64,000 nucleotides of DNA, taken from Clostridiales bacterium (GTDB taxonomy: Bacteria; Bacillota; Clostridia; Christensenellales; Borkfalkiaceae). Of this stretch, positions 9,279 to 57,706 are shown piece by piece. Numbering within the stretch: the stretch's first letter is position 1; the number at the start of each line of letters is the position of its first letter. Location of the stretch: NCBI GenBank assembly GCA_015055525.1, contig SVHZ01000002.1, positions 1 through 64,000 on the forward strand, written 5' to 3'. The translations under genes and the position numbers were made by a program. Below the pieces are notes generated by a model. That model was not told the DNA's origin. It made no database searches and saw only the letters and a list, made by a program, of their open reading frames with translations.

Positions 9279-10137
9279 CTTCACCTCTGCTAGACCCCTT
9301 TCTACCTTCTCTATAAAGTTCAAGAGCCTTTCTATCGATTTCGCCTTTTTCAACGAAAAGAAAAACGCGCGCGTATTCTTTTCTTAAAATAAAGTTATCC
9401 GCAATAGGCATCAATACTAAAGTAACGAGTAAAAGGATAATACAAATAATACCTGCTGGAGATTGCATAAAGTAAACGAAACTACCAACGTTAGGTATTT
9501 TTTCGCCACGATAAATACTTCTCATTTGGCTATATCTAACGGGATAAGTGTCAGGATAATGCACCGCGTCGCCTTGCAAAAGGAAGTGGCGTTCGTTAGG
9601 ATGCTCTGCATTTGGCTCTTCAATGCCGATGATACGGTGAATTAAGAGCGCCCCCGTGATATGTTCGTAAACAACTATGTCGTAAAGCTCTAAATCTTCT
9701 TCCTTTGGAAGTTCGTGAAGTAAAACCACGTCAAAGAGTTGAAGTTGATCGTCAAGGTTATTGTTGAAAAGATATTTGTTTTCTTCGTACTTTTCCGCCA
9801 TTGAAGTTGACGCTATAACCTTGATTGCGGGTAAAGAGTCAACTTTCGTATCGCCTCTGCAACTTGAAATACTCGTAACGATTAAAAGCACGGCTAAACA
9901 AGCGCATAAAGTTATGGAAGCAATCTTCTCGATTAATTCCATAATCCTACCCGCTTTAGTGCTTTTTTTATTAAGTTGTTTATTGAGTCTTTCTTTTATC
10001 TTAGCGTCTTCAAGCCCGTTAGTTACTAAAATTCCCTTTTGCTTTGCAATATAGCAAATCATAAACGAGAATAATGCAGTAAGAGCAATGAAAACTATAA
10101 GACATAGGAAAAATACGTATAATTCAAACCCTGTCAT
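9271..10137 (-). CDS. Signal peptidase I, SipW/ER type
   Basis: Catalytic Ser motif STSMAE and His in LLIHRIIGIEE (Ser-His type); N- and C-terminal TM segments. Confidence 0.8.
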   Translation of the reverse strand: MTGFELYVFFLCLIVFIALTALFSFMICYIAKQKGILVTNGLEDAKIKERLNKQLNKKSTKAGRIMELIEKIASITLCACLAVLLIVTSISSCRGDTKVDSLPAIKVIASTSMAEKYEENKYLFNNNLDDQLQLFDVVLLHELPKEEDLELYDIVVYEHITGALLIHRIIGIEEPNAEHPNERHFLLQGDAVHYPDTYPVRYSQMRSIYRGEKIPNVGSFVYFMQSPAGIICIILLLVTLVLMPIADNFILRKEYARVFLFVEKGEIDRKALELYREGRKGSSRGEDA

Positions 10138-26033: not shown

Positions 26034-26145
26034 TTTTAGCCAAAGGCTAAAAATATCACTTGCCGATAGGCAAATATCACTTCGCCCATGGCGAAATATC
26101 ACTTTTTCGTAAAACGAAAAAAGATAACTGTTTACAAAGTAAACT
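26034..26145. repeat. Array of five short distinct hairpins separated by ATATCAC/GTGATAT-type linkers
   Basis: TTTTAGCCAAAGGCTAAAA-ATATCAC-TTGCCGATAGGCAA-ATATCAC-TTCGCCCATGGCGAA-ATATCAC-TTTTTCGTAAAACGAAAAAA-GATAAC-TGTTTACAAAGTAAACT. Confidence 0.85.
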
Positions 26146-47557: not shown

Positions 47558-47586
47558 TTGACAACGAAAAATCAAAATGTTAAACT
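47558..47586 (+). promoter_or_regulatory. Promoter of T-box leader 1
   Basis: TTGACA-N17-TAAACT. Confidence 0.6.
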
Positions 47587-47599
47587 TTTTTTATCTTAA

Positions 47600-47872
47600 T
47601 AGAAAAGCTATGACGAAGACGGATTCTAATAGGGTTTTTCAGAGAGTCGGGGATGGTGTGATCCCGATAAAATTAGTTAGAAATCTTATCACTTCCGAGC
47701 TGAAAGTTCAAAAGGGTGTTTCCCAAGTAGCGCTTTCCGTGCTTGCTACGTTAGTGCATAGGAGTTGTTAGACTCTGAAGGTGGTAGTTATATAACTACA
47801 ATTTGAGTGGTACCGCGTATGTTATAACATTCGTCTCAAAGCAATTTGAGGCGATTTTTTTATTATAAAAAA
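47600..47872 (+). promoter_or_regulatory. T-box riboswitch, predicted Ile (AUC) specifier
   Basis: AGAGAGTCGGGGATGGTGTGATCCCGA Stem I apex; specifier region TT-ATC-ACTTCCGAGC; T-box GAGTGGTACCGCG at 47805; terminator CGTCTCAAAGCAATTTGAGGCGATTTTTTT. Confidence 0.9.
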
Positions 47873-47896: not shown

Positions 47897-50164
47897 ATGA
47901 ACACAAACAACACTTTAAGTCAGTTATCGGAGATAGCAACTAGAATTAAGGAGTTGCGTGAAATTATGGGCTTTTCCGTTGCTGAAATGACAGAAAAAAC
48001 TAACGTTACCGAGCAACAATATCTTTCGTATGAAAGTGGAAAAGTAGATATTCCTTTCTCATTTATTCACAAATGCGCCTTGGCGTTTGGCGTTGATATG
48101 ACTGATCTTTTAGAAGGAAGATCTGCAAAACTTTCAACTTATACCGTTACGAGAAAAGGTCAAGGTCAAGAAACGGCAAAGGAAGACGGTATTGATATTG
48201 CAAACCTTGCCCCAAAGTTCAAAGATAAACTTGCAGAACCTTATTACGTTACTTACGAGTATTCTGCAAGTCAATTAAACAAGCCTATCCATTTAGCAAC
48301 TCACTCAGGTCAAGAATTCGACCTTATTTTGAGTGGTCAATTAAAAGTTCAAGTAGGCGATCATACTGAAATTTTATCCGAAGGGGATAGTATTTTTTAC
48401 AATTCTTCAATTCCCCACGGAATGATTGCAATAGGTGGGAAAAGTTGTACGTTCGTTGCGGTGGTAATGTCTGGCGATCATACGGATGAACCCGTGGTTA
48501 GAAAGAGCGTTATGTCTGCTAAGAAGAGCGAAAGTTTGGTGTGTGAAAAATTCGTCGACACTAAGGAAGACGATAACGGCAAACTTTTATCAATCAACTT
48601 CAAAAACACCAGCACTTTCAACTTCGGTTTTGATATCGTTGATGAAATTGCAAATAAATATCCTGAAAAACTCGCTATGCTCCATTTAGATAGGGCTAAA
48701 AACGAAAGAAGATTTACCTTCAAGGATATAAAAACCGAATCAAACCGCGTTGCTAACTACTTCACTTCGCTTGGAATTAAAAAGGGCGATAAAGTAATGT
48801 TAGTTCTCAAGCGCCACTATCAATTCTGGTTCTGTATGGTTGCTCTTCACAAGCTTGGCGCAGTTGCAATTCCTGCTACGAATCAACTTAAAGAACACGA
48901 TTTTGAATATAGATATAACTCCGCAGGAGTTAAGGCAATAGTTTGCACGGCGGACGGCGATACTTTTGAATACGCTCAAAGCGCCGCTAAAAAATGCCCG
49001 CAAGTAGAGCATTTAATAATGGTTGGCGGTCAAAAAGACGGCTGGCGTGATTTCGATAAAGAATACCCCTTATTCACGGGTAAATACGAGCGCTCAAAAG
49101 ATTGTTCTTGTGGTGATGACCCCGCTCTTATGTTCTTTACGAGCGGAACGACAGGTAATCCAAAAATGGCATCGCATAAGCACACTTACGCGCTCGGCCA
49201 TTTCGTAACGGCAAAATATTGGCATTGTTGTGAAAGAGACGGTCTTCACTTGACTATTTCAGATACCGGTTGGGGTAAATCACTTTGGGGTAAACTCTAC
49301 GGTCAATGGCTTTGCGAAGGCGCGGTATTTGTGTACGACTTTGATAGGTTTGACGAAAACGATATTCTCCCAATGTTTGCAAAGTACGGCATAACTACTT
49401 TCTGCGCTCCGCCAACAATGCTCCGCATGCTTATCCGTGGCGATTTATCTAAATTCGACCTTTCTTCAATTCACCATATGACTACTGCTGGCGAAGCCTT
49501 AAACCCCGAAGTTTTCAATAAGTTCAAAGAGGCAACGGGTTTAGAGATAATGGAAGGTTTCGGTCAAACTGAAACGACGCTTGCAATAGCAAATCTTTAC
49601 GGAACTACGCCGAAGATAGGCGCTATGGGAAAGGCAAATCCGCAATACGACGTTGACGTTGTCGATAGTGACGGAAATAGCGTTCCCGCAGGTGAAGTTG
49701 GCGAAATAGTAATTCATACGGACAAGAGTGTCCCCTGTGGTTTATTTAGAGAATATTATCGTGATACCGAAAAGACAAGTGAAGCTTGGCACGATGGATT
49801 GTATCACACGGGCGATACCGCTTGGAGAGATGAAGACGGGTATTTTTGGTACGTTGGCAGAGTTGACGACGTTATTAAGTCAAGTGGCTATCGTATCGGA
49901 CCTTTTGAAATTGAATCTGTAATAATGGAACTTCCTTACGTTTTAGAGTGTGGCGTTTCCGCCGTTCCCGATGAAGTTCGCGGTCAAGTAGTAAAAGCGA
50001 GCATCGTTTTAACTAAAGGAACAGTTCCTAGCGAAGAATTAAAGAAAGAAATTCAAAATTACGTAAAAGAGCATACCGCTCCCTACAAATATCCAAGAGT
50101 AGTAGTGTTTAAGGATGAACTTCCCAAAACTATAAGCGGTAAGATCCAACGAAACAAGCTCTAA
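47897..50164 (+). CDS. XRE HTH - cupin - AMP-dependent acyl-CoA synthetase fusion (copy 1)
   Basis: HTH (IKELREIMGFSVAEMTEKTNVTEQQYLSYESG), cupin (LILSGQLKVQVGDHTEILSEGDSIFYNSSIPHGM), adenylation motifs MFFTSGTTGNPK, GFGQTETT, YHTGDTAWRDEDGYFWYVGRVDDVIKSSGYRIGP. Confidence 0.92.
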   Translation: MNTNNTLSQLSEIATRIKELREIMGFSVAEMTEKTNVTEQQYLSYESGKVDIPFSFIHKCALAFGVDMTDLLEGRSAKLSTYTVTRKGQGQETAKEDGIDIANLAPKFKDKLAEPYYVTYEYSASQLNKPIHLATHSGQEFDLILSGQLKVQVGDHTEILSEGDSIFYNSSIPHGMIAIGGKSCTFVAVVMSGDHTDEPVVRKSVMSAKKSESLVCEKFVDTKEDDNGKLLSINFKNTSTFNFGFDIVDEIANKYPEKLAMLHLDRAKNERRFTFKDIKTESNRVANYFTSLGIKKGDKVMLVLKRHYQFWFCMVALHKLGAVAIPATNQLKEHDFEYRYNSAGVKAIVCTADGDTFEYAQSAAKKCPQVEHLIMVGGQKDGWRDFDKEYPLFTGKYERSKDCSCGDDPALMFFTSGTTGNPKMASHKHTYALGHFVTAKYWHCCERDGLHLTISDTGWGKSLWGKLYGQWLCEGAVFVYDFDRFDENDILPMFAKYGITTFCAPPTMLRMLIRGDLSKFDLSSIHHMTTAGEALNPEVFNKFKEATGLEIMEGFGQTETTLAIANLYGTTPKIGAMGKANPQYDVDVVDSDGNSVPAGEVGEIVIHTDKSVPCGLFREYYRDTEKTSEAWHDGLYHTGDTAWRDEDGYFWYVGRVDDVIKSSGYRIGPFEIESVIMELPYVLECGVSAVPDEVRGQVVKASIVLTKGTVPSEELKKEIQNYVKEHTAPYKYPRVVVFKDELPKTISGKIQRNKL

Positions 50165-50425
50165 TCCGTGAAAAACGGCGCTATGCTTTGTTCTTTGCGT
50201 TTTGTGAAATTCCTGCGACCAACAAGGTCGCTCCCTTCCACAAAAGCGCAAACGCCTCGCCTAGCTTGTTTTTGACGGCTTATACAAATTTTAATAAATT
50301 TTGAGTTAGTCGAGCCTTGCCTAGCTTGTTTTTGACGGCTTATACAAATTTTAATAAATTTTGAGTTGGTCGAGCCTTAAAACGTGCGCTTTTAACTAAT
50401 TTTGCGAGCAAGGCATAAGCCGTTT
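50165..50425. repeat. Interspersed hairpin repeat family copy G plus 60-bp tandem duplication of its 3' end
   Basis: CCGTGAAAAACGGCGCTATGCTTTGTTCTTTGCGTTTTGTG...GCGACCAACAAGGTCGC...CACAAAAGCGCAA; GCCTAGCTTGTTTTTGACGGCTTATACAAATTTTAATAAATTTTGAGTT repeated with 60-bp period. Confidence 0.8.
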
Positions 50426-50449: not shown

Positions 50450-50478
50450 TTGACATAAAGTCAATTTAGTGTTAAATT
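50450..50478 (+). promoter_or_regulatory. Promoter of T-box leader 2
   Basis: TTGACA-N17-TAAATT. Confidence 0.55.
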
Positions 50479-50499
50479 AATAATAATTTAATTAAAGGC

Positions 50500-50760
50500 A
50501 ATGACGAAAAGTCCTTGTATTAAAGCTCGTTTACAGAGAACGGCGTTTGGTGCGAGCCGTAGCGAGAAGATATAAGGTTGTAGTTTCCGAGCCGAGAAGA
50601 AGAAAGCAAAATAGCAAGTAGAACTTCTCCGTGATTTCTGCGTTAATGAATAGGAATTGTTAGATTCTAAAGTGGCAACTATCAGGTTGCAAATTGAGTG
50701 GTACCGCGGGATAAAACTCGTCTCAAAGTTTACTAGACTATGGGACGGGTTTTTTTAACA
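50500..50760 (+). promoter_or_regulatory. T-box riboswitch, predicted Val (GUA) specifier
   Basis: AGAGAACGGCGTTTGGTGCGAGCCGT apex; specifier region TT-GTA-GTTTCCGAGC at 50580-50582; T-box GAGTGGTACCGCGG at 50696; terminator ending GGGACGGGTTTTTTT. Confidence 0.88.
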
Positions 50761-50781: not shown

Positions 50782-53064
50782 ATGGAACAACTTACTATCA
50801 AAATTCAAGAAATAGCAAACAGAATTAAGGAACTTCGCTTAATAGAAAACCTTTCGATTTCCGATATGGCTTTCAAAACGGGCGTTAGCGAAGAAGAGTA
50901 CCTAAATTGTGAAAACGGCAAGAGCGATTTGAACTTTGCCTTTATTTATCGTTGCGCAAACGCGTTAAAAGTTGACGTTACCGATATTATAGAAGGTTAC
51001 AGCCCTAAACTTAAAGCCTTCACGGTAACTAGAAGTGGTAACGGTCAAAACGTAGGTAACGCTCACGGTATGACGTATTATAACTTGGCAAGTTCTTTTA
51101 GGTCTAGAATTGCAGAACCTTTGTTCGTAGTTAGCAAATATTCCGATGAAGAGCAAGATAAGCCTTTAGAACTTACCACGCACGACGGTCAAGAATGTGA
51201 TATTATCGTCGACGGTAACTTGCTTGTTCAAGTGGGCAATCACAAAGTAGTGTTAAACCCGGGTGACAGTATTTATTATAATTCTGAAGCACCGCACGGT
51301 TTAAGGGCGGTTGGCGGAAAAGATTGTACTTTCTACGCAATCGTATTAAATCCGACGGGCGAGCCTATTCCCGAACTTAAAGAAAGCAAGATTATCGAGA
51401 GCAAGTCTAAACTTATCGACGATGGCAAGAAACCGAGAATTTACAAAAACTTTATAGACGTTGATCGTAACGAAAACGGAACGCCTACTAAAATTGAGTT
51501 CAAAAATCACGAAAAATTCAACTTTGCTTTCGACGTTATGGACGAGATTGCCGAAAAGGACCCTGACAAACTTGCTATGCTCCATATCTCGAAGGATAAA
51601 ACTGAAAGAAGATTTACCTTCAAGGATATTAAAAAGGAATCTAACCGCGCGGCAAACTATTTTAAGTCGCTTGGAATTAAAAAGGGCGATAGAGTTTTAC
51701 TCGTATTAAAGCGCCATTATCAATATTGGTTTGCAATGCTCGGTCTTAACAAACTCGGCGCGATTGCAATTCCTGCAACCAACCAACTTCAACCGCACGA
51801 TTTTGAATATCGTTTCAATGCGGCTGGCGTATCTGCGGTTATTTCTACGATAGACGATAATATTCCGTCGCGTATCGAAGAAACTTTACCCGCTTGCCCC
51901 GGCGTTACTACCAAGATTATAGTAAACGGCGAGCGTGAAGGTTGGCGCACTTTTGACGAAGAGTATAAACTTTTCTCAACTCATTTTGAAAAGACTGAAG
52001 ATTGTGCTTGCGGTGAAGACCTTATGCTTATGTTCTTCACGAGTGGAACGACTGGTTATCCAAAGATTGCAGCGCACTCGCACACTTATCCGCTCGGCCA
52101 TTTCCACACGGCTAAGTATTGGCACAACGTTGATCCAAACGGCTTGCACTTTACTATTTCAGATACCGGTTGGGCAAAGGCTATGTGGGGTAAACTCTAC
52201 GGTCAATGGCTTTGCGAAGGCGCGATTTTCGTTTACGACTTCGACCGTTTTGACGCAAGTGAAATTCTCCCGATGTTTGCAAAACATAAAATTACAACTT
52301 TCTGCGCTCCGCCAACAATGCTTAGAATGCTCGTAAAGGAAGATATTTCTAAATACGACCTTTCTTCGGTTAAGCACATGACGACGGCTGGAGAAGCCTT
52401 AAACCCCGAAGTTTACCGTCAATTTGAAAAGATTACCGGTCTTCAAATAATGGAAGGTTTCGGTCAAACGGAAAGCACGATGATTATCGGTAATATGACG
52501 GGCGCTCCGCATAAGATAGGTTCAATGGGCAAGCCCGCTCCGATATACGACGTTGACATTGTTGATAGTGACGGAAGATCCGTAGAAGTTGGTGAAACGG
52601 GCGAAATCGTTATTAAAATCGGCGATAAAGCGCCTTGCGGATTATTCAAAGGTTATTATCGTGATGAAGAAAAGACCAAAGAAGTATGGCACGACGGTTA
52701 TTATCACACGGGCGATACCGCTTGGAGAGATGAAGACGGATTCTATTGGTACGTTGGTAGAGTTGACGACGTTATTAAGTCAAGTGGCTACCGTATCGGA
52801 CCATTTGAGATTGAGTCTGTAATAATGGAACTTCCTTACGTATTAGAGTGTGGCGTTTCCGCTGAACCCGATGAAGTTCGCGGTCAAGTAGTAAAAGCGA
52901 GCATCGTTTTAACCAAAGGAACAGTTCCTAGCGAAGAATTAAAGAAAGAAATTCAAAAATACGTAAAAGAGCATACCGCTCCTTACAAGTATCCAAGAAT
53001 AGTTGTGTTTAGAGATGAGTTGCCCAAGACTATAAGCGGTAAAATCCAAAGAAATAAATTATAA
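50782..53064 (+). CDS. XRE HTH - cupin - AMP-dependent acyl-CoA synthetase fusion (copy 2)
   Basis: Paralog of 47897-50164; start re-assigned to MEQLTIKIQE because the longer ORF starts inside the T-box terminator. Confidence 0.92.
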   Translation: MEQLTIKIQEIANRIKELRLIENLSISDMAFKTGVSEEEYLNCENGKSDLNFAFIYRCANALKVDVTDIIEGYSPKLKAFTVTRSGNGQNVGNAHGMTYYNLASSFRSRIAEPLFVVSKYSDEEQDKPLELTTHDGQECDIIVDGNLLVQVGNHKVVLNPGDSIYYNSEAPHGLRAVGGKDCTFYAIVLNPTGEPIPELKESKIIESKSKLIDDGKKPRIYKNFIDVDRNENGTPTKIEFKNHEKFNFAFDVMDEIAEKDPDKLAMLHISKDKTERRFTFKDIKKESNRAANYFKSLGIKKGDRVLLVLKRHYQYWFAMLGLNKLGAIAIPATNQLQPHDFEYRFNAAGVSAVISTIDDNIPSRIEETLPACPGVTTKIIVNGEREGWRTFDEEYKLFSTHFEKTEDCACGEDLMLMFFTSGTTGYPKIAAHSHTYPLGHFHTAKYWHNVDPNGLHFTISDTGWAKAMWGKLYGQWLCEGAIFVYDFDRFDASEILPMFAKHKITTFCAPPTMLRMLVKEDISKYDLSSVKHMTTAGEALNPEVYRQFEKITGLQIMEGFGQTESTMIIGNMTGAPHKIGSMGKPAPIYDVDIVDSDGRSVEVGETGEIVIKIGDKAPCGLFKGYYRDEEKTKEVWHDGYYHTGDTAWRDEDGFYWYVGRVDDVIKSSGYRIGPFEIESVIMELPYVLECGVSAEPDEVRGQVVKASIVLTKGTVPSEELKKEIQKYVKEHTAPYKYPRIVVFRDELPKTISGKIQRNKL

Positions 53065-53330
53065 GCGTCGCAATACTGCGTTAACTGTCAAGCCTTTGCG
53101 ATTGCAATGACCAAAAAGGTCTATTGCACCCGACAAAGTCTTGCCGAGCCTTGTCTTGCTTGCTTCTAATTCATTTCTACGAAACAAACTCTAATCCGTT
53201 ATTTACTTCGTTATGCTTTGTTTCTGCCGTCAACTCGTGACCGTAATGACCAAAAAGGTCTATTACGCCCAACGAGATTGCCGTCGAGCCTCGCCTAACT
53301 CGTAACTAACGAATTATAGTGAGCATAAAA
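53065..53330. repeat. Interspersed hairpin repeat family, copies H and I
   Basis: TGCAATGACCAAAAAGGTCTATTGCA and CGTAATGACCAAAAAGGTCTATTACG apices with long flanking arms. Confidence 0.82.
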
Positions 53331-53364: not shown

Positions 53365-54027
53365 ATGAACGAATTAAAAAGAATAACGATTATTTCAGGG
53401 CATTACGGTAGCGGGAAAACTAATTTTGCCGTAAATCTTGCGTTTAATCTAAAAAAAGATTACGATAAAGTTGCCGTTGCCGACCTTGATATAGTCAATC
53501 CGTATTTTAGAACTAAAGATAGCATTGAAGATTTCAATTCAAGAAATATCCGTTTGATTTCTTCCGAGTACGCTGGCTCTAACGTAGATATTCCCGCTCT
53601 TCCGCAAGAGATGTACGCTATAACCGACGATAAAAGTTATCAAATGATAGTTGACGTTGGTGGGGACGATAGGGGAGCGTTGGCGCTCGGTAGGTTAACG
53701 CCCAAAATCTTAGAAGAAAACGACTATGATATGCTACTCGTTGTAAACTGCTACCGTCCGCTCACGCCTGACGTAAATTCTACGATAGAAGTTGCAAAAG
53801 AGATAGAAACTGCGTGCAAGATTAAATTCACGGGAGTTATAAACAACTCTAATCTCGGTGAACTCACCACCGGGGAAGACGTTTTAACTTCTCTATCCTA
53901 CGCCGAAGAAATAGCAAAGGCGTTAAACGTAAAAGTAAAATATACCACCGTAAAACAAAGTTTATACGGTGAGTTGAAAGATAAAATAAAAAATCTTTAT
54001 CCTATGACTTTACAGAAAAAGATATAA
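53365..54027 (+). CDS. P-loop ATPase (CobQ/MinD-like) linked to 2-oxoacid oxidoreductase operon
   Basis: ISGHYGSGKTNFAVNLA, VADLDIVNPYFRT, VDVGGDDRGALALGR. Confidence 0.85.
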   Translation: MNELKRITIISGHYGSGKTNFAVNLAFNLKKDYDKVAVADLDIVNPYFRTKDSIEDFNSRNIRLISSEYAGSNVDIPALPQEMYAITDDKSYQMIVDVGGDDRGALALGRLTPKILEENDYDMLLVVNCYRPLTPDVNSTIEVAKEIETACKIKFTGVINNSNLGELTTGEDVLTSLSYAEEIAKALNVKVKYTTVKQSLYGELKDKIKNLYPMTLQKKI

Positions 54028-54038
54028 AGGAGAAAATT

Positions 54039-54245
54039 ATGGCAAAACTTACAATTAACGTTGATAATTGCAAAGGCTGTGGACTTTGCGTTGATGTTTG
54101 CCCAAAGAAAGTTTTAGAACTTTCAGCAAATAAAATTAACAAAAAAGGGCATAAGCCCGTTGAAGCGGTTAGGGAACAAGACTGCATCGGTTGCGCTTTC
54201 TGCGCTACGATGTGTCCTGACTGCATTATAAGAGTGGAGAAATAA
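54039..54245 (+). CDS. 4Fe-4S ferredoxin (delta subunit of 2-oxoacid:ferredoxin oxidoreductase)
   Basis: CKGCGLCVDVCPKK and CIGCAFCATMCPDC. Confidence 0.93.
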   Translation: MAKLTINVDNCKGCGLCVDVCPKKVLELSANKINKKGHKPVEAVREQDCIGCAFCATMCPDCIIRVEK

Positions 54246-54249
54246 GACT

Positions 54250-55308
54250 ATGGCAAATAAAGTTTTAATGAAAGGAAACGAAGCAATAGCCGAAGCGGCA
54301 ATCAAAGCAGGTTGCATGCACTATTTCGGTTATCCCATAACTCCGCAAACGGAAATTGCCGCTTATATGGCTAAGAAGATGCCTAAAATAGGTGGAACTT
54401 TCTTACAAGCGGAAAGTGAAATTGCCGCAATCAATATGGTTTACGGCGTATCTGCGGCTGGTTATAGAGTAATGACTAGTTCTTCAAGCCCGGGCATTTC
54501 GCTTAAAAGCGAAGGTTTATCATACCTTGCCGGCGCTGATCTTCCCGCAGTTGTAATCAACGTTCAACGCGGTGGCCCCGGTCTTGGCGGTATTCAACCT
54601 AGCCAATCAGATTATTTTCAAGCAACTCGCGGTGGCGGTCACGGTGACTTCCACATGATAGTTCTTGCTCCGGGTAGCGTTCAAGAAATGGCGTCTTTGA
54701 CGGTAAAGGGTTTTGAACTTGCAGATAAATATAGAATGACGTCTATGATACTTGCAGACGGTACGATGGGTCAAATGATGGAACCTGTTGAACTTGACTT
54801 TGAAGTTGCGCCTGCGCCTAATAAGCCTTGGGCAACTAACGGCACTAAGATGCAGAGAAAGCACAATATCGTAAACTCTTTATCTCTTATTCCTGAAGAA
54901 CTTGAAAAGTTCAACTTTGCTCGTTACGAAAGATACAAACAAATCGAAGAAACGGAAGCAATGTGGGAAGAATATAAAGTAGACGATGCTGAAATTATCG
55001 TTACCGCTTACGGTATTGCGTCAAGAGTAACTAAGAACGCTGTTGACGAAGCGAGAAAGAAAGGCATTAAAGTAGGCTTAATCCGTCCTATTACGGTATG
55101 GCCGTTCCCCAAGAAAGCATACGAAAAAATCGTAGGTAAAGCAAAGCATATCGTTTGCGTAGAACTTTCTATGGGTCAAATGATTGAAGACGTTAAACTT
55201 TCGGTTGAATGTAAAGTACCCGTTACTTTATGCAACCGTGCAGGCGGTATGATTCCGTCAACCGAGCAAGTACTTGCAGAGATTGAAAAATACGCAAAGG
55301 GGGAATAA
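54250..55308 (+). CDS. 2-oxoacid:ferredoxin oxidoreductase alpha subunit (VorB/KorA-like)
   Basis: [61 protein letters not shown]. Confidence 0.92.
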
Positions 55309-55312
55309 GAAA

Positions 55313-56068
55313 ATGGCAGTAGTATTTGATAAACCTAAATCACTTGCAGATATTTCTATGCACTATTGCCCCGGTTGTACTCACGGCATAGTTCATAGAT
55401 TAGTTGCCGAAGTTATCGACGAACTCGGCATTGAAGGAAGAACTATCGGTATTGCTCCCGTAGGTTGTTCAGTTATGGCGTACAATTATTTTAATTGCGA
55501 TATGATTGAAGCCGCTCACGGTAGAGCGCCTGCCGTTGCAACGGGCGTTAAAAGAGCAAACCCAGAAGAACATATCGTTTTCACTTATCAAGGTGACGGT
55601 GACTTAGCGTCAATCGGTATGGCTGAAACCGTTCACGCAGCCGCTCGTAATGAAAACATTACGATAATCTTTATAAACAACGCAATTTACGGTATGACGG
55701 GTGGTCAAATGGCGCCCACTTCTCTTCCAGGTCAAGTAACTCAAACTTCTCCGTACGGTAGAGACGTTCAAGCTTGCGGTTTCCCCGTTAGAGTTTGCGA
55801 AATGCTCTCAACTTTAGACGGCCCTGAATACCTTGAAAGAGTAACCGTAAACAGCGTTAAAGCAGTTAAGAACGCCAAGAAGGCAATCAAAAAAGCCTTC
55901 CAAAACCAAATTGACAAGAAAGGTTTCTCACTCGTTGAAGTTTTATCAACTTGCCCAACCAACTGGGGTTTAACTCCTAAGGACGCTCTTAAATGGGTAG
56001 ACGAAAAGATGATTCCGTATTATCCGCTCGGCGTTTACAAAGATAGATCTAATAAGGAGAGTAAATAA
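55313..56068 (+). CDS. 2-oxoacid:ferredoxin oxidoreductase beta subunit (TPP-binding)
   Basis: [60 protein letters not shown]; start re-assigned to MAVVFDKPK. Confidence 0.92.
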
Positions 56069-56070
56069 TT

Positions 56071-56610
56071 ATGAAAACTACTAAATATTTATTCTCTGGT
56101 TTCGGTGGTCAAGGCATACTTTTCTCTGGTAAGTTTTTAGCATACAAAGGCTTAACCGACGAAAAGAACGTAAGTTGGCTTCCGTCTTACGGCCCTGAAA
56201 TGCGTGGCGGTACGGCAAGTTGTTCGGTTATCGTTAGCGATGAAAGTATAGGTTCTCCTATCGTTGACGCGCCTGACGTTTTAATCGCAATGAACCTTCC
56301 ATCGCTTGATAAGTTTGAAAATACCGTAAGAGCGGGCGGAACTATCATACTTGATAGCACCTTGATTGATAGAAAGGTAAACAGAACTGACGTTGAAGTT
56401 ATTTATCTTCCTGCAACTCGTTTGGCAAGTGAAAACAACTGTCCTACGCTTGCAAACATGATTATCGTTGGCAAACTCTTAAAAGTTACCGGCGAATACG
56501 ATGAAAATTCCATTGAAGCAACTCTTAAAAAGGTAATATCTGCTAAGCGTGCAGACATGCTTGAAGTTAATAAAAAAGCAATGGAAATAGGAGCGAACTA
56601 TGGAGATTAA
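56071..56610 (+). CDS. 2-oxoacid:ferredoxin oxidoreductase gamma subunit
   Basis: [45 protein letters not shown]. Confidence 0.93.
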
Positions 56611-57661
56611 AATTCAATTAACAAGCAATAAAAAAGTAAAACCCGATAGTAGCGTGCTTGGTTTCGGTAAATACTTTACCGACCACATGGCTATGATAAC
56701 TTGGAACGCGGAAAAAGGTTGGCACAACGCGAGAATAGTTCCGTTTGAAAACCTTTCTATTCACCCTGCAAGCACCGTTCTTCACTACGGCGCTGAAATC
56801 TTCGAAGGCTTAAAAGCGTATAGAAGAAAAGACGGTGGTGTTCAAATGTTTAGACCTATGGAAAACGTTAAAAGACTTAATCGTTCGGCTGAAAGACTTT
56901 GCCTTCCAACTATTGATGAAGACGTTGCTTTTGAATTGCTCACAAAGTTTGTTGAAATTGAGCAAGAGTGGACTCCGAGCGCAAGCGGAACTTCGTTATA
57001 TTTAAGACCGTTTATGTTTGGTAACGACGAAGCGTTAGGCGTTCACGCCGTTCACAACGCAGAGTTCGTAATTATCGCGTCACCCGTTGGCAGTTATTAT
57101 AAAGAAGGTATCAACCCCGTAAAGATTATGATTGAAAACGAAGACGTTAGAGCCGTTCGCGGTGGTACGGGTTATGCTAAATGCGGTGGTAACTACGCTG
57201 CATCAACAAGAGCGGGCAAGCGCGCCGAAGATAAAGGCTACTCTCAAGTTTTATGGCTTGACGGCGTTGAAAGAAAGTATATCGAAGAAGTTGGCGCAAT
57301 GAACGTTATGTTCAAGATCAACGGAAAAATCGTAACGCCTATGCTTTCAGGCTCAATTCTTCCGGGTATTACGAGAATGAGTTGTATTGAAGTGTTAAAA
57401 TCAAAGGGCTTTGAAGTTGAAGAAAGGCTTTTATCGGTTGACGAACTTTTAGACGCTATGAAAACGGGCGCTTTAGAAGAAGCGTTCGGTTGCGGAACTG
57501 CTGCGGTAATTTCACCTATCGGTGAACTTATGTACGACGGGGTTAAATATCCCGTATCAGGTGGAAAAATTGGCGAAGTTACTCAAATGCTTTACGACAC
57601 TTTAACTGGTATTCAATGGGGTACTGTTGAAGATAAGTTCGGCTGGATATATAAGATATAA
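56600..57661 (+). CDS. ilvE: Branched-chain amino acid aminotransferase
   Basis: LHYGAEIFEGLKAYR, FMFGNDEALGVHAV, GTGYAKCGGNYAASTRAGKRAEDKGYSQVLWLDG. Confidence 0.94.
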   Translation: MEIKIQLTSNKKVKPDSSVLGFGKYFTDHMAMITWNAEKGWHNARIVPFENLSIHPASTVLHYGAEIFEGLKAYRRKDGGVQMFRPMENVKRLNRSAERLCLPTIDEDVAFELLTKFVEIEQEWTPSASGTSLYLRPFMFGNDEALGVHAVHNAEFVIIASPVGSYYKEGINPVKIMIENEDVRAVRGGTGYAKCGGNYAASTRAGKRAEDKGYSQVLWLDGVERKYIEEVGAMNVMFKINGKIVTPMLSGSILPGITRMSCIEVLKSKGFEVEERLLSVDELLDAMKTGALEEAFGCGTAAVISPIGELMYDGVKYPVSGGKIGEVTQMLYDTLTGIQWGTVEDKFGWIYKI

Positions 57662-57671
57662 TTTTAAGACA

Positions 57672-57706
57672 TAAAAAATGCAAGGCTCGATGCCTTGCTT
57701 TTTTTA
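57672..57706 (+). terminator. Terminator after ilvE
   Basis: GCAAGGCTCGATGCCTTGCTTTTTTT. Confidence 0.8.

Follow-up and report, generated by a model that had tools for sequence, protein, structure and literature searches.

Within the window, by which we mean the whole 64,000-nucleotide stretch of Clostridiales bacterium contig SVHZ01000002.1 analysed here, a cluster of genes on the forward strand begins with a T-box leader (T-box 1, 47601..47841) and closes with an intrinsic terminator (57680..57705). T-box 1 is followed by the gene for a 755 aa protein (ligase 1, 47897..50164) in which HTH_19/HTH_3 and Cupin_2 domains are joined to an AMP-binding acyl-CoA synthetase. A second leader (T-box 2, 50492..50728) precedes the gene for a 760 aa protein (ligase 2, 50782..53064), also an HTH, cupin and AMP-binding acyl-CoA synthetase fusion. 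Downstream lie a small CbiA/MinD-type NTPase that is kept in the cluster (53365..54027), a two-[4Fe-4S] ferredoxin subunit (54039..54245), VorB, the alpha subunit of 2-ketoisovalerate:ferredoxin oxidoreductase (VOR; 54250..55308), a VorA-type TPP-binding beta subunit (55313..56068), a VorC-type gamma subunit (56071..56610) and the branched-chain aminotransferase IlvE (56600..57661). VorB scored 539 bits against NF005507 (cut-off 399) and IlvE 397 bits against TIGR01123 (cut-off 250). The NTPase between the ligases and VOR is perhaps concerned with Fe-S cluster delivery. Together these are the genes expected for conversion of an acid to its acyl-CoA, then to a 2-oxoacid and finally to an amino acid.

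An initial annotation, made from the sequence letters, had noted a T-box sequence, a Stem I apex and a terminator in front of ligase 1 and had proposed an Infernal alignment as a check. In cmscan, T-box 1 gave a full-length match to RF00230 (model 1-219; 103.4 bits, E 9.8e-22) and T-box 2 a match of 95.6 bits (E 1e-19), both over the gathering cut-off of 93 bits, and all three signals were located. The promoter of T-box 1 is TTGACA-17-TAAACT with a TG extended -10 (47558..47586; 10/12 matches). The CAGAGA/GGTG motifs are present at the Stem I apex, and the T-box sequence GAGTGGTACCGCG lies at 47805..47817. Within it, UGGU (47808-47811) is positioned for pairing with the tRNA 3' ACCA, and the N of UGGN is T in 90/92 leaders of the ligase 1 type. 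The intrinsic terminator at 47831..47861, with a 10-bp stem and 7 T (-13.1 kcal/mol), has the sequence TCGTCTCAAA-GCAA-TTTGAGGCGA-TTTTTTT and overlaps the 3' strand of the antiterminator, with which it competes. Intrinsic terminators were found in 147/151 family leaders versus 31/423 control stretches. When the Stem I region was folded for minimum energy with Vienna, the T-box Stem I did not emerge. Minimum-energy folding often misses RNAs rich in K-turn and loop E motifs; Stem I was judged by the Rfam alignment and helix covariation in place of these folds. T-box 1 is a transcriptional T-box riboswitch of the isoleucine type. The window also carries a Gut-1 RNA (RF01706), an sRNA, at 26048-26130 on the reverse strand (51.3 bits).

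The specifier codon in Stem I of T-box 1 is AUC (Ile; 47688..47690), in the register common to the orthologous leaders. Two ATC triplets, both Ile, stand five bases apart in this leader (47683-47685 and 47688-47690); because only the second is kept among orthologs, directly 5' of N-CTTC-C-GAGC, 47688-47690 was taken as the specifier. The register was anchored on the 3' helix of Stem I alone (codon, 1 base, 4 pyrimidine-rich bases, 1 base, GAG) to avoid picking whichever codon fits. Read in this manner, leaders of the ligase 1 type contained 83 ATC and 2 GTC (n=85), those of the ligase 2 type 53 GTA, 2 GTC and 1 GTG (n=56, GTN throughout), and those of LeuA-like genes 8 CTC and 2 CTG (n=10). 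Across leaders, every specifier change stays inside the valine or the leucine codon box or swaps Ile and Val. On other T-boxes of the source genome the same register gave TTC for pheS, TGG for trpB, ACC for thrS, TGC for cysE/cysS and CTC for the leuA-like gene, and was cognate in all five of these controls. The helix tetrad beside the specifier, seen as GAAG/CTTC, GGAG/CTCC, GAAA/TTTC and GAGG/CCTC, was fully paired in 131/151 leaders, whereas 200 permutations of the tetrads averaged 102 and never exceeded 109. Registers shifted by -2 to +2 were rejected, having produced no consistent meaningful codon for both ligases and the controls. The ATC (Ile) specifier predicted in the initial annotation is upheld by its presence in 83/85 orthologs versus GTN in 56/56 leaders of the neighbouring paralog. 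Although the specifier loop of T-box 1 is without the usual AGUA on its 5' side and the two ATC triplets stand so close together, a different specifier, for example through a shifted specifier loop, is extremely improbable, since both triplets encode Ile, the orthologs share the register that yields ATC, and that register is cognate in the five control T-boxes.

The UGGU of T-box 1 is compatible with A73, and the tRNA-Val(UAC) of the genome ends in ACCA. No tRNA-Ile was found among the tRNA loci examined (30/35) in this draft, which is 92% complete; missing rRNA operons are the probable cause.

T-box 2 likewise contains the CAGAGA and GGTG apex motifs and the T-box sequence GAGTGGTACCGCG. Its specifier codon is GUA (Val; 50580..50582), its promoter is TTGACA-17-TAAATT with an extended -10 (50450..50478), and its intrinsic terminator lies at 50714..50759 (-18.3 kcal/mol); it is a valine T-box. 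The open reading frame list placed the start of ligase 2 at the ATG at 50740, which was rejected as lying inside this terminator, and the start was assigned to the ATG at 50782. Downstream of ligase 1 and ahead of the T-box 2 promoter, at about 50258-50378 of the window, a 60-bp repeat occurs twice in tandem, and short elements resembling it recur near 53080-53300.

The acyl-CoA synthetase named as the T-box 1 target in the initial annotation is the AMP-binding fusion at 47897..50164, and its start is preceded by an AGGGAGG Shine-Dalgarno. The best NCBIfam match of both ligases is MbcS (NF047394), with 445.8 bits for ligase 1 and 448.8 bits for ligase 2, scores far below the MbcS equivalog cut-off of 850 bits. 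The two proteins are accordingly classed as relatives of MbcS, not as MbcS itself, and may work alike. The MbcS of S. aureus accepts 2-methylbutyrate and isobutyrate for activation, isovalerate only poorly, and its role is the priming of branched-chain fatty acids (PMC10026030). The best solved relative of both proteins is 3ETC, with 52% identity to ligase 1 and 51% to ligase 2. This is MacsMa, an acyl-CoA synthetase of Methanosarcina acetivorans that adenylates C3-C8 acids and prefers 2-methylbutyrate (PMC10455477). Ligase 1 is predicted to be a 2-methylbutyrate--CoA ligase and ligase 2 an isobutyrate--CoA ligase. The HTH-cupin part might, as a guess, sense the acid or its CoA ester and bind DNA, and the fusion could possibly be an enzyme that doubles as a transcription regulator. 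T-box control does not depend on the fusion, since an ATC T-box still stands upstream in a relative (L062) that encodes the HTH-cupin part and the ligase separately.

One site of the ligases is near-fixed for different letters according to the specifier, corresponding to chain position 278 of 3ETC (DSGW[G]K). It emerged from a first alignment of 82 ligases behind Ile T-boxes and 50 behind Val T-boxes. The full alignment has Gly there in 83/84 Ile-specifier ligases and Ala in 52/52 Val-specifier ligases; ligase 1 has Gly460 (codon at 49274..49276) and ligase 2 Ala465 (codon at 52174..52176). MacsMa has Gly at this site, while an acetyl-CoA synthetase has Val (GWV) at the aligned position, a residue that lines the acetyl (acyl) pocket of Acs. 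Two loci (L145 and L148) have a ligase 1-like protein, encoded near 9917 behind a T-box with specifier GTC, whose pocket residue is Ala. Being 98% identical they count as one event, in which specifier and pocket residue seem to have changed together. The tree requires the specifier to change between Ile and Val three times and the pocket residue between Gly and Ala four times, with only one independent pair on well supported branches; the Gly/Ala switch is thus replicated independently once with good support, and three times at most. Because there is one such pair, the link between specifier and pocket is suggestive and not proven by replication. The bigger pocket left by Gly would fit the bigger acid.

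The breadth of the known relatives allows a different account of the paralogs, namely that both ligases are generalists, acting for example on aryl or straight-chain acids, and are partitioned in expression only and not in substrate. The C3-C8 range of MacsMa (PMC10455477) and the acceptance of both 2-methylbutyrate and isobutyrate by MbcS are in keeping with this. Against it stand the single fixed pocket difference that tracks the specifier and the retention of the paralogs side by side, ligase 2 directly following ligase 1 in 62/121 fetched loci. We regard the generalist account as unlikely.

The association of these genes is conserved among the relatives, mostly MAGs of ruminant and other gut Clostridia. 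The full order of ligase, VOR and IlvE was found on one stretch in 35/121 fetched loci, many of the others ending at contig ends. One locus (L104) has no second ligase after the first, and IlvE itself is preceded there by a GTA T-box. Domain searches detected neither IlvC (PF01450) nor IlvD (PF00920) in the source genome or its eight genus relatives, and IlvB/acetolactate synthase (TIGR00118) was likewise not detected in the source genome or these eight. IlvC was present in 47/121 and IlvD in 54/121 relatives, and both in 14/14 control genomes. The source genome combines ligase, VOR and aminotransferase without IlvC or IlvD, as would be expected of the genes for an iso-acid route. Among the 121 relatives, VorB exceeded its cut-off in 30/30 genomes with a fused ligase versus 29/91 others (Fisher p 3e-12), and IlvC was found in 1/30 versus 46/91 (Fisher p 8e-7), both tests ignoring shared ancestry. 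Ligase and IlvC occur together in a few genomes (G085, G122 and G127), so the iso-acid route is not everywhere the sole route.

Taken together, we consider it probable that the Ile and Val T-boxes each switch their own iso-acid ligase, feeding a pathway of reductive carboxylation and transamination to isoleucine and valine. In T-box 1, uncharged tRNA-Ile would base-pair with the leader at two places, the AUC of Stem I and the UGGU of the antiterminator bulge. This would keep the terminator at 47831-47861 from forming, and ligase 1 would be turned on. Ligase 1 would then convert scavenged 2-methylbutyrate to 2-methylbutyryl-CoA, VorBAC with ferredoxin would carboxylate this reductively to 3-methyl-2-oxopentanoate, and IlvE would aminate the latter to isoleucine. 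T-box 2 and ligase 2 would form a parallel branch from isobutyrate to valine, each branch having a separate amino acid sensor and both having VOR and IlvE in common. Since isoleucine supply from 2-methylbutyrate most likely starts with this ligase, T-box 1 would be a biosynthetic T-box. The initial annotation had called a ligase target unusual, which holds for T-boxes in general; at this locus it does not, as the neighbouring genes fit the logic of biosynthetic T-boxes.

The direction of flux could be questioned, VOR being, as is generally known, reversible and used oxidatively in many peptide fermenters. The cluster would then be catabolic, with amino acids transaminated, VOR oxidising the products to acyl-CoA, the ligases handling the acids and the T-boxes tuning degradation. 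This is very improbable: a T-box turns genes on when its tRNA is uncharged, the opposite of what degradation would call for; AMP-forming ligases consume ATP; and with IlvC, IlvD and IlvB missing the supply must come from elsewhere. Very improbable, too, is a supply of branched acyl-CoA to branched-chain fatty acid synthesis and not to amino acids: the closest curated family, MbcS, does prime fatty acids in S. aureus (PMC10026030), but the cluster has VOR and IlvE without FabH or Bkd, two amino-acid-specific T-boxes would be strange control for lipid synthesis, and VorB accompanies the fused ligase in 30/30 genomes.

The proposed supply of isoleucine and valine from iso-acids may have a counterpart for leucine. 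On contig C30 of the source genome (L194:197-4343) a leucine T-box precedes a LeuA-like gene and an AMP-ligase fusion of 820 aa, in which a xylose-isomerase-like TIM barrel is joined to the ligase, and in relatives this leucine T-box arm lies within the same cluster. In the LeuA-like protein the LeuA_dimer domain, which binds leucine, is retained, but RDGEQ and the metal-binding HxH are lost. Leucine synthesis by the classical route was rejected, since RDGEQ/HxH are absent and no LeuC-size protein was found in the source genome, whose sole aconitase-family protein is about 650 aa and not of LeuC size. An isovalerate arm in which LeuA is reused as a leucine sensor would fit these features, and we hold this less firmly than the isoleucine and valine arms. 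Erysipelotrichaceae bacterium NK3D112 (L141), apparently a cultured strain and not labelled a MAG, has T-boxes for all three amino acids, with specifiers CTG (Leu), ATC (Ile) and GTC (Val), and no IlvC. The widest form of the proposal is a regulon of three arms, with an Ile, a Val and a Leu T-box each governing a ligase of its own (for 2-methylbutyrate, isobutyrate and isovalerate) and with one VOR and one IlvE completing the sole route to the branched-chain amino acids. In it, the single Gly/Ala residue would decide which acid the Ile and Val ligases take, and leucine would be sensed by a LeuA without catalytic activity. As a whole we put this forward tentatively, with a little less than even confidence.

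Branched-chain volatile fatty acids, the iso-acids fed to cattle, are required by many anaerobes of gut and rumen, and the activating ligases and their control are poorly known. If the RNA specifier labels a ligase with the amino acid to be supplied, T-boxes could serve as a tool for substrate annotation in a notoriously promiscuous family, and iso-acid T-boxes could predict which uncultured species rely on iso-acid cross-feeding. The control logic would also reveal the direction of an otherwise reversible VOR, and the Gly/Ala site provides a one-residue hypothesis of specificity.

No report joining T-boxes with VOR, iso-acids or CoA ligases was found in the literature searched; two classic T-box surveys lay outside that search, and absence is not thereby proven. 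The T-box targets named in one survey are tRNA synthetases, amino acid biosynthesis and transport (PMC3766115), and acyl-CoA or ferredoxin genes are not mentioned in another (PMC2494555). The chemistry is old and the RNA class known; T-box control of iso-acid ligases for each amino acid is, as far as searched, undescribed. The leaders resemble the transcriptional class of RF00230 (tyrS/ilv-type, Bacillus subtilis) in their CAGAGA/GGUG apex, specifier, UGGN and competing antiterminator and terminator; unlike those T-boxes, their target is an acyl-CoA ligase. MacsMa is 52% identical over the ligase part and has the Gly of ligase 1 at the GWGK pocket site, yet it is archaeal and has neither an HTH-cupin N-terminus nor a T-box. 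S. aureus MbcS is the best curated family for both ligases with the same predicted acids, but there one enzyme takes both acids and serves branched fatty acids. Rumen bacteria convert 2-methylbutyrate to isoleucine and isobutyrate to valine by carboxylation and amination (PMC7356843 and references therein), and the iso-acid route to isoleucine, valine and leucine goes back to Allison, Robinson and co-workers in the 1960s-70s (cited in PMC7356843). That route is known as culture biochemistry, to which the present proposal adds a set of genes and an RNA control specific to each amino acid.
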